A DNA stretch of 64,000 nucleotides, from positions 744,001 through 808,000 of the forward strand of contig NZ_BSEV01000002.1 of the NCBI RefSeq assembly GCF_027922005.1. Direction: 5' to 3'. This document shows, piece by piece, positions 34,702 through 41,111 of the stretch (its first letter is position 1; every line of letters begins with the position of its first letter). The position numbers and the translations under genes were made by a program. Below the pieces are notes generated by a model. The model saw only the letters and a program-made list of their open reading frames with translations. It was not told the DNA's origin and did not search any database. The stretch is from Streptosporangium carneum. GTDB taxonomy: Bacteria > Actinomycetota > Actinomycetes > Streptosporangiales > Streptosporangiaceae.

Positions 34702-34767
34702 ACGGCTTCCGCCCGGCACCCCGCGTTGCCGGGCGCTCCCCCCGACCTGAAGAGGATCAAGTCTGCG

Positions 34768-36414
34768 ATGCAGCCGAAACGACGCACGAGATTCCTGAGG
34801 ACGGCCGCGGTGCTGACCGCGTCATGTCTGGCCGTGCTGGCCAACACCCCGATCGCGTCCGCCGCGCCCCCCGGAGGGGACGCCGCCGCGGAGGCGAGCG
34901 CGCTCACCCCGCCCCGCCTGCCCGGAGGCGACTGGCCCTCCTGGCAGAAGGACCTGAGCGGCTCCCGCTCCAACCACCTCGAACGCCAGATCACCCCGGC
35001 CAACGTGGGCGGCCTGAAGCTGAAGTGGGCCTTCGCCTACCCCAAGGACGCGGGCACGCCGCACAGTCAGCCCGCCGTCGTGGGCGACACCATCTACTTC
35101 GGCGCGCCCGACGGCCACTTCTACGCCCGTGACGCGCGGACCGGCGCCGCCAAGTGGGACTTCGACCTGAGCACCGTCGGCCCCCAGGGCCGCGCCGTGG
35201 TGCAGGACGGGGCCGCCGTCTCCGGCGGCAAGGTGTACTTCGGCGACGGCCGGGGTTACTTCTACGCGCTCGACCAGCGCACCGGCAAACTGGTCTGGGC
35301 GCGGCAGATCGACACCGAGGTGGCCGCGGGCGTCACCAGCTCGCCGATCGTCTACGGCGGCCGCGTCTACGTCGGCGTCTCCAGCGGCCAGAACATCCTC
35401 GGCAAGACCTTCCCCTGCTGCACCTTCCGCGGTCACATCGACGCCCTGGACGCCAGGACGGGCGAGCAGGTCTGGCGCTACTACACCGTGCCCGAGCCCA
35501 AGCAGAACGGCACCTGGCCGAACGGCGTGCCGAAGTACGAGCCGTCCGGCGCGGGCGTGTGGAGCACTCCGGCCATCGACCCGGTCACCCGCACCCTGTT
35601 CGTCGGGACCGGGCAGAACTACACCGGGAGCGGCGGCAACTACGACTCGATCCTGGCGCTGGACATCACGACCGGCAAGGCCCGCTGGACCAGGAAGATG
35701 ACCGACGTCGACACCTGGCGGATCGAGTGCTCCTTCCCCACCCCCGAGGACAAGCAGTACTGCCCGAACCTGCCCGACGGCACCGCGCTGGACTACGACC
35801 TGGGCGCCGCCCCCAACCTCTTCAGCGCGGGCGGCAAGCGCCTCATCGGCATCGGCCAGAAGGCCGGCGTCTACCACGTGCTCGACGCCAGGACCGGCAG
35901 GATCGTCTGGCAGCGCCAGCTGTCCACGCCGATGCCCAGCGGCGGCCTGTCCGGCATCCAGTGGGGCACCAGCTTCGACGGTGAGCGCCTGTACGTCTCG
36001 ACGTACATGGCCAGGCCCGGCACGCTGTTCGCGATCAACCCGGCCGACGGCCACATCCTCTGGAAGACCCCCAACCCCGAGGACGGCTGCACCACCGGCG
36101 GCGCGGCGCAGTACCCCAACGTCTGCCAGCTCGGCCACGGCCCCGCGGTGACCACGACGCCCGGCCTCGTCTGGCTGGGCAGCATGGACGGCAAGATGCG
36201 GGCCTACTCCTCGCGCACCGGCGAGGTCCTGTGGACCTACGACACCATCACCCCGGTCGACGGCGTCAACGGCCTGCCGGGCCGCGGCGGCGCGCTGTCG
36301 GGCGCGGGCGGCGCGGTCGTCTCGCACGGAATGGTCTACGTGCACTCCGGTTACATGTTCACCCCCTACCCCAACCCCGACCGCGGCTCGGTCCTGCTGG
36401 CCTTCGGCCTGTAG
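34768..36414 (+). CDS. Secreted PQQ-type beta-propeller protein (polyvinyl-alcohol-dehydrogenase-like)
   Basis: This 548-residue protein starts with ATG at 34768 after AGAGGA. It has a signal peptide (LRTAAVLTASCLAVLANTPI) and then an eight-bladed quinoprotein propeller with repeated tryptophan-docking motifs such as LDARTGEQVWRYYT and ALDITTGKARWTRK. An adjacent-Cys motif, FPCCTFRG, lies near residue 215, as in several quinoprotein alcohol dehydrogenases. There is no cytochrome c CxxCH motif. It resembles actinobacterial polyvinylalcohol dehydrogenase-like proteins; no PQQ synthesis genes are in view, so enzymatic activity is uncertain. Confidence 0.8.
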   Translation: MQPKRRTRFLRTAAVLTASCLAVLANTPIASAAPPGGDAAAEASALTPPRLPGGDWPSWQKDLSGSRSNHLERQITPANVGGLKLKWAFAYPKDAGTPHSQPAVVGDTIYFGAPDGHFYARDARTGAAKWDFDLSTVGPQGRAVVQDGAAVSGGKVYFGDGRGYFYALDQRTGKLVWARQIDTEVAAGVTSSPIVYGGRVYVGVSSGQNILGKTFPCCTFRGHIDALDARTGEQVWRYYTVPEPKQNGTWPNGVPKYEPSGAGVWSTPAIDPVTRTLFVGTGQNYTGSGGNYDSILALDITTGKARWTRKMTDVDTWRIECSFPTPEDKQYCPNLPDGTALDYDLGAAPNLFSAGGKRLIGIGQKAGVYHVLDARTGRIVWQRQLSTPMPSGGLSGIQWGTSFDGERLYVSTYMARPGTLFAINPADGHILWKTPNPEDGCTTGGAAQYPNVCQLGHGPAVTTTPGLVWLGSMDGKMRAYSSRTGEVLWTYDTITPVDGVNGLPGRGGALSGAGGAVVSHGMVYVHSGYMFTPYPNPDRGSVLLAFGL

Positions 36415-36727: not shown

Positions 36728-37873
36728 TCATCCGATGGTGGCTTTCCACCGGCCGCGCCGCAAACAGATCGTCCCGTCCGGAGTGATGCGTGCGTAGGCA
36801 CCACGTATCGGCAGCTCGCCGTGCTGAAGCCAGTAGTGCCGTACCTCGTCCAGCACGTCCCACAGGCGGCGTGGCCCGCCCTGGTGGACGGTGGGCGGCC
36901 CGTCTGCCTGGGCGCTGGCTCTGGCCCACGACCCGTCAGCGTGAACCATCCGCGCTGTGCGTCGCCCGTCGTCCGTCTCCTCGTAGTGGTGTTCGATGCC
37001 GGGGCAGACGACTTCCAGCATGGCGGGCAGATCCCAGTTGTAGGTGACGTTCAGCACCGGGTATCGGCATTGTGTGACCTCTTCTCCTTCGGCGTCCCAG
37101 AGCGTGTCGAACATGCCGCGCGCCCCGGGTGGGTAGTCTCCGCCGGAACGGGTCGGCATGAACATGGCCCGATCCCACTCGATACAGCCTTCGGCGCCGC
37201 CGTCGCTGCTTTTGCCCGCGGTGACGATCAGCGACGTGTTCGCGATGACCGTGGCGAACCGCCCGCCGGGCCGTAGCGCCGCCAGCCAACTCGCCGGGAT
37301 CGGCTTCACCGACACCATGGAAACGATACGGTCGTACTCCCCCGGCAGGGGGCCTGTCGCATCGACGGGGAGAACCTTCGGGTGCAGGCCGAGGGTGTCC
37401 AGCCGTGAGGCAGCGGCCTCGACGAGATAGGGGTCGACGTCGATGCTTGTCACCCGGTCATCGCCGAGTTGCTGCGCCAGCAGGGCCGCACTGTAGCCCG
37501 ACCCGGTGGCGACATCGAGTACGTCCGCCCCGTCGTAAATCTCAGCATGGCGGAACATCTGCGTCACCAGGCTCGGCAAGGTGGAAGACGACGTAGGCCG
37601 TCCGTCGACGGTGGCCCCCACATCGGCGTGGTCGGCGTGGACCCCGGCAACCTGAGTGACGACCGTTTGATCGTCGTAGGCCACACCCATCCACGCCTCA
37701 ACGTCACTTGGGCCGTCATGCAATTCCCAGGTTCGGCTGTAGGCGCCGGCAGGCGTGTCCCACCAGCGCGGCAGGTGCCGGGGAGTGGCAGCGACCGGCT
37801 CGCGCCACCGCGACCCACGGGAGGTGGCGGCAGCGGCGAGCCGGGCAGCGCGGGGTTGCCAGTTCATGGTCAC
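36728..37873 (-). CDS. PIMT-like SAM methyltransferase coupled to a radical SAM enzyme
   Basis: This 381-residue protein starts with GTG at 37873, overlapping the radical SAM stop by four bases; an ATG at 37867 is an alternative. It has the protein-L-isoaspartate methyltransferase fold. VAYDDQTVVTQV (residues 64-75) and RPTSSSTLPSLV (92-103) match the substrate loop, and VLDVATGSGYSAALL (118-132) is SAM motif I. A 150-residue C-terminal extension follows. Relatives occur in ribosomal-peptide pathways, where they methylate Asp and lead to aspartimide (lanthipeptides, graspetides, imiditides). Here it is paired with a radical SAM protein, so a peptide target is likely but not shown. Confidence 0.8.
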   Translation of the reverse strand: MTMNWQPRAARLAAAATSRGSRWREPVAATPRHLPRWWDTPAGAYSRTWELHDGPSDVEAWMGVAYDDQTVVTQVAGVHADHADVGATVDGRPTSSSTLPSLVTQMFRHAEIYDGADVLDVATGSGYSAALLAQQLGDDRVTSIDVDPYLVEAAASRLDTLGLHPKVLPVDATGPLPGEYDRIVSMVSVKPIPASWLAALRPGGRFATVIANTSLIVTAGKSSDGGAEGCIEWDRAMFMPTRSGGDYPPGARGMFDTLWDAEGEEVTQCRYPVLNVTYNWDLPAMLEVVCPGIEHHYEETDDGRRTARMVHADGSWARASAQADGPPTVHQGGPRRLWDVLDEVRHYWLQHGELPIRGAYARITPDGTICLRRGRWKATIG

Positions 37874-38787
37874 TTTTTACCGGGCGGGCTGAGCTCTGGG
37901 CTGCAGAAGCGTGGATCACAAGCCGAATTCTCCGAAGGCGGGCAGTCATTGCCGTCCTGCTCGGTGGGGCGGCAGCTGTTCTTGTCCGGCTGACACTCCC
38001 TGCCCGCCCGAGGAGCGGGAACCATGTCGAGGACCTGACTCCATGTGACACCGGCCAGGAGGTCAGCCAACGGCGAGGCCAGCACATTACCGGCGCTCAT
38101 GGTCCGCGACATGGGGCACGGGGTGAGGCTGCCATCCGGCAGCACTGCGGCCGTCCCCCGACCGCATGCACCGCACAGCTCAGCGGGGTCCAGGGCTCCG
38201 CGGGAGGGACGGCCCAGCAGCCGCACCCGGTCGACGCCGATCTGCGTGACGCCGAGCCCCGTCAGCAGCGCCTTGCCCTCTTCGACACGCTGGCTTTCGG
38301 TGACATGGACTATGCCGACCCGCAGCGGGATCCCCCGCTCCAGCGCCGTGGTGATGTTCTTCTGGGTGCGGGGCAGGGTGTTGCGTCCGGTGATCAGCAT
38401 GTGCTCGCGGGCGTCGTCGGTGTAGAAGCTCGTGGCGAGCCGTACCCCAGGCCGGGACAGCATCTCCCACAGCGGGTCCGGAACGTACACCAGGTTGGAG
38501 TACACCTCGACCTCGACCTTGGAGGCCAGAGCGTGGTCGATCAGATCCGGCAACGCCTTGTGAAGGGTCGGCTCGCCCCCGATGAACTGCACATGCGAGA
38601 TGCCGAGCGCGGCAGCCTGGTCGATCACCCTCTTCCAGTCAGGGATGGTCATGGTGCCGTCCGTCCCGGCCGGCGAGCTGGAGGCGTAACAGTGAACGCA
38701 TTCAAGCTGGCACTTGCCGGTCGGCTCCAGCCACAGAAACCGCAGTTCGGTGCTGGTAAACGGGGTCTGGTGTTGTAGAGCGGTCAT
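37870..38787 (-). CDS. Radical SAM protein with SPASM-like region and five-fold Cys-x-Pro tail
   Basis: This 305-residue protein starts with ATG at 38787 after AAAGGGG. The cluster motif CQLECVHC (Cys26, 30, 33) binds the SAM [4Fe-4S] cluster, and FIGGEPTLH follows. A short SPASM-type region has LCGACGRG and TPCPMSRTMSAGN. The last 42 residues form an unusual tail with Cys at 265, 272, 282, 290 and 295, each in a C-x-P motif (CQP, CRP, CPP, CDP, CSP), ending in PPGKK. The enzyme probably modifies a peptide. It is translationally coupled to the PIMT-like methyltransferase. The tail could bind a metal or be a fused substrate. Confidence 0.85.
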   Translation of the reverse strand: MTALQHQTPFTSTELRFLWLEPTGKCQLECVHCYASSSPAGTDGTMTIPDWKRVIDQAAALGISHVQFIGGEPTLHKALPDLIDHALASKVEVEVYSNLVYVPDPLWEMLSRPGVRLATSFYTDDAREHMLITGRNTLPRTQKNITTALERGIPLRVGIVHVTESQRVEEGKALLTGLGVTQIGVDRVRLLGRPSRGALDPAELCGACGRGTAAVLPDGSLTPCPMSRTMSAGNVLASPLADLLAGVTWSQVLDMVPAPRAGRECQPDKNSCRPTEQDGNDCPPSENSACDPRFCSPELSPPGKK

Positions 38788-38891
38788 CGGTGTCCCCTTT
38801 CGCGAAAGGAGGTCGTGACGGCGCGATCGTTACTGGCTGGAGGTAGGTGGTGCAGGCCAACCGGGTGCCACTCCTGACTGGTCCGCACCAT
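38784..38891 (-). CDS. Possible 35-codon leader or peptide gene overlapping the radical SAM start
   Basis: A leftward ATG at 38891 opens a 35-codon frame (MVRTSQEWHPVGLHHLPPAS...) whose stop overlaps the radical SAM ATG as ATGA. There is no strong Shine-Dalgarno sequence. The frame is open and protein-like upstream of the ATG as well, up to a stop near 38964, but has no other start. It might be a translated leader that couples expression of the radical SAM gene, or a precursor peptide. It could also be chance. Confidence 0.3.
   Translation of the reverse strand: MVRTSQEWHPVGLHHLPPASNDRAVTTSFRERGHR
38796..38809. promoter_or_regulatory. Perfect 14-bp palindrome over the radical SAM ribosome site
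   Basis: CCTTTCGCGAAAGG is fully self-complementary. Its left half on the minus strand is the AAAGG Shine-Dalgarno sequence of the radical SAM gene. A bound repressor or a small RNA hairpin here would block translation. Confidence 0.45.
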
Positions 38892-38946
38892 GGGCTTCGA
38901 GTCACCCCATCTCTTGTGACCGTCATGCCGTCGAGGGAGGACTTGG

Positions 38947-39213
38947 ATGCTTGAGCATGTCCATTACCGCAGGTCCCGCACTCCGATAGTGCGGGACTCC
39001 AGCGGCGCGGGTCAGCCGAACGGCCGATTCACCACCCCGTACCTGGAGTCCATGCATTGCGCATGGCGGGAGATGACGTACGAAGGACGCGACAGTTCAG
39101 GGGCTCCAGGTCCTCAGATCGTCGCACCGGTCTCATTCCGCCGCCTCGGTCGCGAGGTCGGTGAACACGGCGGAAGAACCGGGCCAAGCACTCTCCGCCG
39201 GAAGCGCCGGTGA
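38947..39213 (+). CDS. Small ORF (88 aa) with strong RBS, divergent from the radical SAM unit
   Basis: ATG at 38947 follows GAGGGAGG by seven bases, an excellent ribosome site. The 88-residue product is unrecognised. It has two copies of RDSSGA (residues 16-21 and 48-53), few hydrophobic residues and a basic end (LRRKRR). Its last 80 bases run antisense to the broken HATPase gene, so the true end could differ. A 10-bp hairpin (38973-38997) lies within its first codons. As a small gene beside a radical SAM/methyltransferase pair it is one of two weak candidates for a precursor peptide. Confidence 0.35.
   Translation: MLEHVHYRRSRTPIVRDSSGAGQPNGRFTTPYLESMHCAWREMTYEGRDSSGAPGPQIVAPVSFRRLGREVGEHGGRTGPSTLRRKRR
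38973..38997. other. 10-bp hairpin beside the radical SAM promoter
   Basis: GTCCCGCACT (38973-38982) and AGTGCGGGAC (38988-38997) form a perfect stem with a five-base loop. It lies upstream of the leftward radical SAM unit and inside the rightward small ORF. It could end transcription arriving from the right, or attenuate the small ORF. Confidence 0.55.
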
Positions 39214-39640
39214 AGCCACCAGCGTGCACCACACGATCTTTCCCCCGCCCTTCGGCCGGCAGTAACCCCAGCTGCTCGCGAGCAGGTCCACGAGGTAGAG
39301 GCCGCGCCCGCCCTCGTCGTCCGGGCCGGGATCCCTGAGAACGGGCGAGGTACGGCCGGCGTCCCAGACGCGCAGCACGACCGTCTCCTCGGCCTGGTAC
39401 AGGTCCATCCAGATGCGGGTCCGGACTCGCCAGGGCGGCCGTCTCCAGCGCGGCGAGGGACGCGGTGTGCGCCTTGATCGCGTTGGAGACCAGTTCGGAG
39501 ACGACGAGCCGGGCCGTCTCGACCAGCTCGTCCCGTCGCCCGCCCTCCAGCACGCGCTGGACGTGCACGCGGGCGTAGTAGGGCGAGGTGGGGAAGACGG
39601 AGAGTTCCAGGTAGTGCGCTCTGCGGCTGACACCGGTCAT
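39133..39640 (-). pseudogene. HATPase (anti-sigma/RsbW-like) protein broken by a frameshift
   Basis: The first part, from ATG at 39640 (MTGVSRRAHYLELSVFPTSP, then ARLVVSELVSNAIKAHTASL with the Asn box), is in one frame. The second part (RIWMDLYQAEETVVLRVWDA, then DEGGRGLYLVDLLASSWG with the G boxes) is in another frame ending at 39133. The switch lies at about 39415-39435 and is explained by loss of two bases or gain of one in a CG-rich run. Intact relatives are small serine-kinase-like ATP-binding proteins that pair with XRE/DUF397 genes in actinomycetes. A sequence error is possible. Confidence 0.75.
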
Positions 39641-40006
39641 TTCTCTCTCGATCCTGCTCGGCATGTCGGGCACAGGACCGGCACCGCTCGCAGCCGGGGG
39701 ACCGCTCCCTCATGGGTGGCGAGGGCGCGGTGCCGGTCCTGTGGGGGCACGACCGGGAGCGGCAGGGGGCTGCCGCCGGTCGTGCCGCTTGCGCCGGGCG
39801 GACACCTGACAGGGGTGGGCCGCGTCGGGAGGGAAGGTCGTCCGCCCGGCCGCTTGGGGAAATCACACGTTCCGCCTTCCAGGGAGGAACCGGCCTGGAA
39901 GGCTTTACGGTGAGAGCATGCACCATCACACTGAGTAAATGCAATGCAGGCTTTTACACTGCCCGCATAGTCCAGAAGAGCGTTAAAGATGCAGGAGAAA
40001 GGCAGG
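39641..40006. other. Divergent intergenic region between HATPase and XRE genes
   Basis: No gene is supported in these 366 bases. The right end is the AT-richest part (39925-39990) and should carry the XRE promoter. It has a weak GTAAA...TTTAC inverted repeat (39935-39939 with 39953-39957). Longer open frames crossing the region are compositional. Confidence 0.4.
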
Positions 40007-40882
40007 ATGGGCGAAATTGCACCCCTGTCACCAGCCAGACGTCAGCCGCCCACGGTGCGTCTGCGTCGTCTAGCGGCAGAGCTACGCCGCCTTCGCGAGG
40101 AGGCCGGGCTCTCCCAGGCCGAGGTGAGCGAGAAGACCGACATCAACCTCGCCACGCTTCACCGGATGGAGACGGCCAAGACCAAGCCGCAACTCCGGAC
40201 GCTCAATGCCCTGCTCGACGTCTACGGCGCCACCGGCAGCCGCCGGACCGCCCTGGTGAAACTCCAGAAGGAAGCCAAACAGCGAGGCTGGCTCCACGGC
40301 TTCGAGGCCGATCTTCCCGGGCAGTACAGCGCCTACATCGGCCTGGAAGCCGAAGCGCAGCAGGCCGTCAATTACGAGTCGCTGTTCATCCCCGGCCTGC
40401 TGCAGACCGAGGACTACGCGCGGGCGGTGATCCGGGGAGTACGGCCGACCGTCACCGACGACGAAGCCGAGACCCGCGTCGCCGCCCGGCTACAGCGGCA
40501 GGCCCTCCTGGAAGGCGACACACCCCTCCGGCTGTGGACGATCCTGGACCAGGCAGCCCTGTCACGAACGGTCGGCAGCGACACCATCATGCGTGACCAG
40601 CTCACACATCTCGTCCAGCAGGCCAAGCGCCCGCACATCACCCTTCAGATCATCCCGTTCTCCGCCGGAGCTCACTCGGGTATGCCCGGCAGCTTCATCG
40701 TCCTGAAATTCGGCACGGATGGCCCCGACGTAATCCACATTGACAGCATGGCCGGCGGTCTGTTTCTTGAGAAAGAAGCAGATATCCAGCGATACAACCA
40801 CATTTGCGAGCATCTTCGCGCGGTGGCGCTCAGCCCGAACGACTCGGCCGCACTCATCGTCTCCCTACGCGAAGACCGCTAG
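40007..40882 (+). CDS. XRE-family regulator with DUF5753 domain, second intact copy
   Basis: This 291-residue protein starts with ATG at 40007, nine bases after AGGAG; an ATG at 39989 is in frame but lacks a ribosome site. The helix-turn-helix is in AELRRLREEAGLSQAEVSEKTDI (positions split across helices), followed by the DUF5753 region with FIPGLLQTEDYARAVI and ITLQIIPFSAGAHSGMPGSF. It is distinct from the regulator at 9678-10505. It sits 13 bases before a DUF397 gene and diverges from the HATPase pseudogene, a common actinomycete cluster. The targets are unknown. Confidence 0.92.
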   Translation: MGEIAPLSPARRQPPTVRLRRLAAELRRLREEAGLSQAEVSEKTDINLATLHRMETAKTKPQLRTLNALLDVYGATGSRRTALVKLQKEAKQRGWLHGFEADLPGQYSAYIGLEAEAQQAVNYESLFIPGLLQTEDYARAVIRGVRPTVTDDEAETRVAARLQRQALLEGDTPLRLWTILDQAALSRTVGSDTIMRDQLTHLVQQAKRPHITLQIIPFSAGAHSGMPGSFIVLKFGTDGPDVIHIDSMAGGLFLEKEADIQRYNHICEHLRAVALSPNDSAALIVSLREDR

Positions 40883-40895
40883 CGGGAGGAGCAGA

Positions 40896-41111
40896 ATGCA
40901 GCAGCCCCACCCCTCCGACGGGCACTGGCGCAAGAGCAGTCTCAGCGCCGACGGCCCGAGCTGCGTCGAAGTGGCCTTCATCGACGACTCGGTCGCCGTC
41001 CGCGACACCAAGAACCGCCAAGGCGGCACCCTCACGTTCCGCCACGACACCTGGACGGCCTTCGTCAGCGGCATCAAGCAGGGCGGCTTCGACGATCTCG
41101 TACTCCGGTGA
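40896..41111 (+). CDS. DUF397 protein, copy 3
   Basis: This 71-residue protein starts with ATG at 40896 after GGGAGGAGC. It has the family pattern HWRKSSLSADGPSCVEVAFI, then VAVRDTKNRQGG and a closing WTAFVSGIKQGGF. It is clearly diverged from copies 1 and 2. It forms an operon with the XRE regulator just upstream. DUF397 proteins are believed to work with their XRE partner; the molecular role is not settled. Confidence 0.9.
   Translation: MQQPHPSDGHWRKSSLSADGPSCVEVAFIDDSVAVRDTKNRQGGTLTFRHDTWTAFVSGIKQGGFDDLVLR

Follow-up and report, generated by a model that had tools for sequence, protein, structure and literature searches.

A candidate in-cis core peptide in the Cys-x-Pro tail of a radical SAM protein paired with a PIMT-type methyltransferase in Streptosporangium carneum

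The present analysis of a 64,000-nucleotide stretch of the Streptosporangium carneum genome (hereafter the window) points to the C-terminal tail of a radical SAM protein, and not to a separate small ORF, as the most likely precursor peptide of the two-gene unit that this protein forms with a PIMT-type methyltransferase (MT) Table 1. Judging from the sequences of 111 homologous loci, we consider it rather probable that the Cys-x-Pro tail is modified in cis by the radical SAM enzyme that carries it and that the MT methylates an Asp of this tail. The first-pass annotation had proposed that the pair modifies a peptide and, as a check, that the flanks of homologous pairs be aligned in search of a conserved short ORF. 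The conserved tail and its Asp motif support the proposal, though most likely not for a peptide encoded by a separate small ORF; what proved to be conserved is the tail, to which that annotation does not point, whereas no small ORF resembling a precursor recurs widely near the loci.

Table 1. Features of the radical SAM-methyltransferase locus and its neighbours (positions in the window)
Feature	Position	Strand	Remarks
PIMT/PAMT-type O-methyltransferase (MT)	36728..37873	-	381 aa, GTG start; PCMT and TIGR04188 matches
Radical SAM/Twitch protein	37870..38787	-	305 aa; body residues 1-262, tail 263-305
Proposed in-cis core peptide	37873..38001	-	radical SAM residues 263-305
Candidate MT target D278-G-N-D281-C282	37942..37956	-	from the distribution of the D..DC.P motif
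HATPase_c_2-like protein	39133..39633	-	upstream; Pfam 25.6 bits, below the cutoff of 27.4
XRE-DUF5753 regulator	39989..40882	+	divergent neighbour, candidate system member only; Pfam/NCBIfam matches
DUF397 protein	40740..41111	+	ORF as listed; true start probably further downstream

The radical SAM protein carries its CxxxCxxC motif at C26/C30/C33 and matches the Pfam Radical_SAM model (E = 1.2e-14), in agreement with the initial description of a radical SAM protein with a SPASM-like region. The second half of this description has to be amended: the Pfam SPASM match (21.2 bits) is slightly below the cutoff (21.5) and, among the homologues, the CX9-15GX4C motif (Twitch, or first half of SPASM) is present in 110 of 111, whereas the motif of the second half (CX2CX5CX3C) was found in none of 110 tails. 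Since only the first of these motifs is present, Twitch seems a better label than SPASM for the auxiliary region; the idea that the tail is the second half of a SPASM domain was rejected on the same count. In two homologues (L119 and L123), a Phe stands in place of one Twitch cysteine. The only Pfam models that match the tailed protein are those of radical SAM, SPASM and Fer4_12. In an AlphaFold2 model built with 96 homologues, 236 of the 305 residues reach a pLDDT of 90 or more and 37 stay below 50. Sequence profile, Foldseek and VIA-align all rank the sactisynthase SkfB as the closest solved structure (Z = 25.0 in the fold comparison), and SuiB comes second in both fold comparisons. The protein shares the Twitch domain with SkfB but, unlike these maturases of sactipeptides and of the streptide type, it has a C-terminal tail, no conserved separate precursor was found for it and it offers no room for an RRE. 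Indeed, only 16 residues precede the first strand of the model, which begins at residue 17, so that no N-terminal RRE fits in the window protein itself; SkfB is described as carrying one (PMC6231123). This predicted lack of room would be consistent with a substrate provided in cis.

The MT matches Pfam PCMT (E = 3.8e-14) up to residue 222, and its residues 9-366 align to NCBIfam TIGR04188, the model of the ATP-grasp peptide maturase system methyltransferase, at 246 bits, without reaching the model cutoff of 380. The protein extends past the PIMT core by a C-terminal region beyond residue 222, which the TIGR04188 alignment covers. Because of this near full-length match and of the presence of a radical SAM neighbour in 54 of the 111 loci, a role as a plain isoaspartate repair enzyme appears unlikely. 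The annotation of a PIMT-fold methyltransferase directly beside the radical SAM gene was confirmed. The four-base overlap that had been reported between the two genes requires an MT start at GTG 37873 and disappears with the equally plausible ATG 37867, two bases past the radical SAM stop; in both cases the genes are direct neighbours. More generally, the MT starts at most 30 nt from the radical SAM stop in 53 of the 54 MT-paired loci, and its first start codon is at -3 in 22 of these 53 directly adjacent cases.

Matches to the radical SAM protein with E <= 1e-30 were found in 37 of 198 genomes (the own genome and its relatives), and matches with E <= 1e-40 in four of 396 genomes sampled across the phylum, own genome included. 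One large genome collection contains 419 relatives, of which the best 80 were examined; together with the non-duplicates among 40 earlier loci and the window, they make up the 111 loci, two of which are identical (110 distinct sequences). The homologues are 42-81% identical to the window protein. Their direct partner is an MT in 54 loci, a gene that we call kinase-like A in 33 (with an ATPase gene in 22 and alone in 11), kinase-like B in 10, an ATPase alone in four and none of these in 10. A kinase-like gene and/or an ATPase therefore replaces the MT in 47 of the 111 loci, and the tail styles differ; such partners are found for example in L116 (6890-8480) and L049 (8914-9723). Two of the three kinase-like A proteins scanned match Pfam APH, one of them above the cutoff, and the single partner ATPase scanned matches Pfam AAA_21. 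The single kinase-like B protein scanned has no meaningful Pfam match, and this group is presumed to be kinase-like from motifs read in its sequences. The MTs fall into two subfamilies, one of the window's type (near-MT, 41 loci) and another type (far-MT, 12 loci) that is 24-30% identical; L045, whose radical SAM gene is broken, was excluded from the resulting 53-row comparison set of MT-paired loci.

The search for a separate precursor considered 3073 ORFs of 18-130 aa on both strands of the 111 loci, in flanks that reach at most 1500 nt on the upstream side and 1000 nt on the downstream side. Loose clustering produced one large cluster of 367 ORFs from 106 loci, located on both strands and both sides, and the three members shown are of low complexity. 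After composition correction, this cluster is absent from the 14 largest families listed, while the tails, used as a positive control, were grouped in 106 of the 111 loci. The next family consists of DUF397 ORFs (10 of 111 loci); another, found in eight loci, lies antisense to DUF397 and overlaps it in the cases whose coordinates were compared, and the remaining families among the 14 largest listed cover at most four loci each. Within these flanks of the 111 loci, no widely conserved precursor-like small ORF was found, although a precursor that is encoded further away or is specific to a lineage may exist. In the window, neither the 35-aa ORF located just upstream of the radical SAM start (best E = 0.32) nor the upstream part of 38702-38926 (best E = 0.37) has a relative in the fetched loci. 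Two tail queries, each searched in 296 genomes, retrieved as genuine matches the window, a known locus, two more tailed radical SAM genes and one partial copy; no convincing stand-alone tail peptide was detected in these searches, the other matches being weak (E = 0.003-0.008). One stretch between two stop codons, in a small incomplete genome (L164), is 48 residues long and has three Cys-x-Pro units but no ATG.

The window tail contains five Cys-x-Pro units, at C265, C272, C282, C290 and C295. At least two Cys are located behind the Twitch domain in 107 of 110 homologous sequences (range 0-14), the exceptions, with only 0 or 1, being L056 and L149 (both apparently frame-shifted) and L114 (short tail). 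In the 104 tails that could be parsed (seven of the 111 were left unparsed), 93-98% of the Cys, depending on the partner class, lie within C-x-P. Four tails (L099, L122, L139 and L061) contain near-repeated units, an organization that resembles that of multi-core precursors. The window tail is predicted to be disordered, since all listed segments of the AlphaFold2 model with a pLDDT below 50 are inside residues 263-300. An alternative would be that the tail Cys ligate the auxiliary cluster of the Twitch domain, and perhaps a further metal, the true substrate being an unlinked protein or a small molecule. In the AlphaFold2 model, C265 sits behind helix 247-255, and in Twitch enzymes the position after the corresponding helix is described as the site of the cluster-I ligands (SkfB paper, PMC6231123). 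At least this first tail Cys may therefore be a cluster ligand, and both C265 and C282 are listed as at least 90% conserved in the alignment. However, besides the absence of the second-half SPASM motif and the predicted disorder, the Cys count of the tails appears more variable than should be expected of cluster ligands, and such ligands are not expected to vary with the type of the neighbouring enzyme. We hold this alternative to be rather unlikely, although it is the main rival of the in-cis reading.

The tails differ according to the partner gene. A motif made of Asp-Gly or Asp-Ser followed by a Cys at most two residues on (D[GS].{0,2}C) is present in 49 of the 54 MT-paired loci compared to seven of the 57 loci without an MT, whose partner is a kinase-like gene, an ATPase or none of these; in this count, L045 was entered as a miss under near-MT though it has a distant-type MT, and the Fisher p value of the contrast, which ignores relatedness, was given no weight. 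A looser control, any Asp at most four residues ahead of the Cys of a CxP unit, is common in both classes (52 of 54 and 42 of 57, respectively). Therefore, it is the Gly or Ser and not the acidity that marks the tails of the MT class. The D..DC.P motif is found in 35 of the 41 near-MT loci compared to none of the 12 far-MT loci and none of the 57 others, and 10 of the 12 far-MT tails have Asp-Gly at most two residues ahead of a Cys. DCxP is present in 37 of the 41 near-MT tails, 27 of which have 7-9 residues back to the preceding CxP Cys. Among characterized systems, the PIMT-type peptide methyltransferases (PAMTs) are described as targeting an Asp that precedes a Gly in graspimiditides (PMC13001092) and the TxDGC motif in lanthipeptides (PMC10787088). 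By analogy, the Asp motif of the MT-paired tails looks like a PAMT target site. The correspondence between tail class and partner type could also be expected if the tail served as an arm onto which the partner enzyme docks, both enzymes acting on a third, unlinked substrate, and the apparent joint movement of tail and MT described below fits this as well. Nevertheless, docking would have no need of repeated Cys-x-Pro units, the tails of the MT class have an Asp-Gly/Ser motif near a Cys that resembles PAMT targets, and we consider this alternative improbable.

The window is likely a natural swap that combines the enzyme body of one clade with the tail and MT of another, as judged from sequence comparisons. 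The window and its sister from Streptosporangium saharense (L086) combine a body that most resembles far-MT enzymes with a tail and an MT of the near-MT type; L090 (Actinomadura logoneensis) is a separate case of a far-MT-like body with a near-MT-type tail and MT. Along the window protein, sliding identity to six near-MT and six far-MT enzymes, all hand-picked, flips from far-MT to near-MT near residue 240: of the 12 overlapping segments that start before residue 241, 10 have the higher mean identity to the far-MT enzymes (the other two, within 141-190, slightly favour near-MT enzymes), whereas the three that start from residue 241 onwards all favour the near-MT ones. The window and L083 share 51% identity for the body and 78% for the MT, the highest MT excess among 820 near-MT pairs (z = 4.6), closely followed by the ordinary pair L055-L075 (z = 4.5) and by L083-L086 (z = 4.2). 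The near-MT bodies form one clade in 0% of 200 bootstrap body trees; such a clade is nevertheless not rejected by the AU test (p = 0.148; p = 0.222 without L090). The body tree shows eight changes of tail motif and three of MT type, and provides one independent pair on starred branches and three on all branches, which is too few for a sign test. Partial Mantel correlations in the 41 near-MT loci are 0.29 for tail versus MT given body and 0.26 for tail versus body given MT (0.25 and 0.28, respectively, once the three swapped loci are removed); the far-MT set of 12 loci gives 0.40 and 0.01. Since the tail DNA is positioned between body and MT, linkage could inflate both correlations, and recombination alone could make the tail track both.

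According to the explanation that we favour, the radical SAM protein would be enzyme and precursor in one. Its folded body (barrel and Twitch domain) would probably apply SAM radical chemistry to its own disordered tail, and a Cys-derived thioether, i.e. a sactionine-type crosslink, would be a first guess for the bond formed, given that the nearest solved relative is a sactisynthase. The co-translated MT would then methylate a tail Asp shortly ahead of a Cys, which in the window would be D278 or D281, and the methylated Asp would lead to an aspartimide or isoAsp. We infer this order, radical SAM and then MT, from what is described for PAMTs: those of lanthipeptides, lasso peptides and graspetides require cyclic substrates and those of type II pamtides depend on a zinc hairpin, but type I enzymes accept linear peptides (PMC11285071, PMC13001092). 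Tying the Cys before methylating the Asp in the loop would therefore be a sensible order, though the type I enzymes imply that it is not forced. A counterpoint to the favoured explanation is that in 57 loci this enzyme stands with other partner genes or with no partner. We consider it improbable that the MT acts on a metal- or cluster-bound Cys hairpin of the tail while the radical SAM activity serves something else, a reading suggested by the 7-9-residue Cys spacing of near-MT tails and by the type II pamtides, described with a conserved Asp between Cys pairs and a need for zinc (PMC13001092, PMC10787088). Against this reading, the radical SAM body and the style of its tail stay the same where kinase-like and ATPase partners recur, suggesting a radical step on the tail as the shared element.

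The initial statement that the pair lacks a dehydratase, a cyclase and an ATP-grasp partner was borne out: a Pfam scan of nine neighbouring genes revealed none of the three, nor any protease or exporter, and of the six matches to the MvdD-type ATP-grasp family in the whole genome, none is inside the window. Two MT paralogues of the same genome (L032 and L035) adjoin MvdD-type ATP-grasp genes, so a graspetide-type arrangement is present in the same cell; L032 additionally has a divergent radical SAM gene. Group 13 graspetides (graspimiditides) have a related MT (TIGR04188) and, as described for graspetide groups 11 and 13 (PMC13097080), DUF397 and DUF5753 genes are found nearby; unlike group 13, the window has no MvdD-type ATP-grasp gene, and the search of the loci found no conserved separate precursor. 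Homologues of the XRE-DUF5753 regulator are present in 16 of 41 compared regions (each up to 18 kb) and DUF397-type small ORFs are close to 10 of the 111 loci. The HATPase_c_2-like protein possibly has a regulatory role and is a candidate member of the system only. On the other side, a PQQ-type beta-propeller protein (34726-36414) is encoded convergently with the MT gene and has no visible tie to the pair.

The gene pair itself is not new, since Lee et al. (2023) reported 249 rSAM-PAMT two-gene clusters and stated that they could identify no precursor or substrate gene next to them (PMC10787088). These clusters have the same adjacent radical SAM and PAMT genes, and we infer that the family studied here corresponds to them; the difference is that the substrate proposed here is the radical SAM protein's own tail. 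Type I and II pamtides (imiditides and cysimiditides) also rely on a PAMT that acts on a peptide Asp, flanked by Cys in type II, but are described as two-gene clusters made of a stand-alone precursor and a PAMT (PMC13001092, PMC10787088). Literature searches over openly accessible papers listed no report of such radical SAM tails or of the tail as a substrate. If the tail is indeed the substrate, the missing-substrate puzzle of the 249 pairs (PMC10787088) would be answered, and this answer might extend to the relatives with other partners (419 relatives in one collection). We give about even chances to a broader reading, namely a new RiPP class of radical SAM enzymes with a hypervariable Cys-x-Pro core modified in cis and exchangeable partners (a PAMT, or a kinase-like protein with or without an ATPase), in which the specificity would be encoded in the tail.

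To our knowledge, few enzymes carry their own core peptide, and a radical SAM enzyme would, if this proposal is true, join core-carrying enzymes such as the borosin methyltransferases. The tail architecture and the behaviour of its sequence fit a borosin-like in-cis core, as a candidate only. In borosins (OphMA), a C-terminal core is likewise described as being modified in cis by its enzyme, but this enzyme is a backbone N-methyltransferase (PMC11285071), whereas the family studied here combines a radical SAM enzyme, Cys-rich tails and varied partners. No borosin-type backbone N-methyltransferase domain was found by Pfam in the tailed protein.

Two further loci can be mentioned. In G029, a radical SAM copy (L163) that is partial but has a Cys-x-Pro tail of its own lies some 8 kb away from the intact L041 gene and is apparently a decayed paralogue. 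A tailed homologue (L133) is also present in Lihuaxuella thermophila (Bacillota), a species that also produces the aspartimide lasso peptide lihuanodin.
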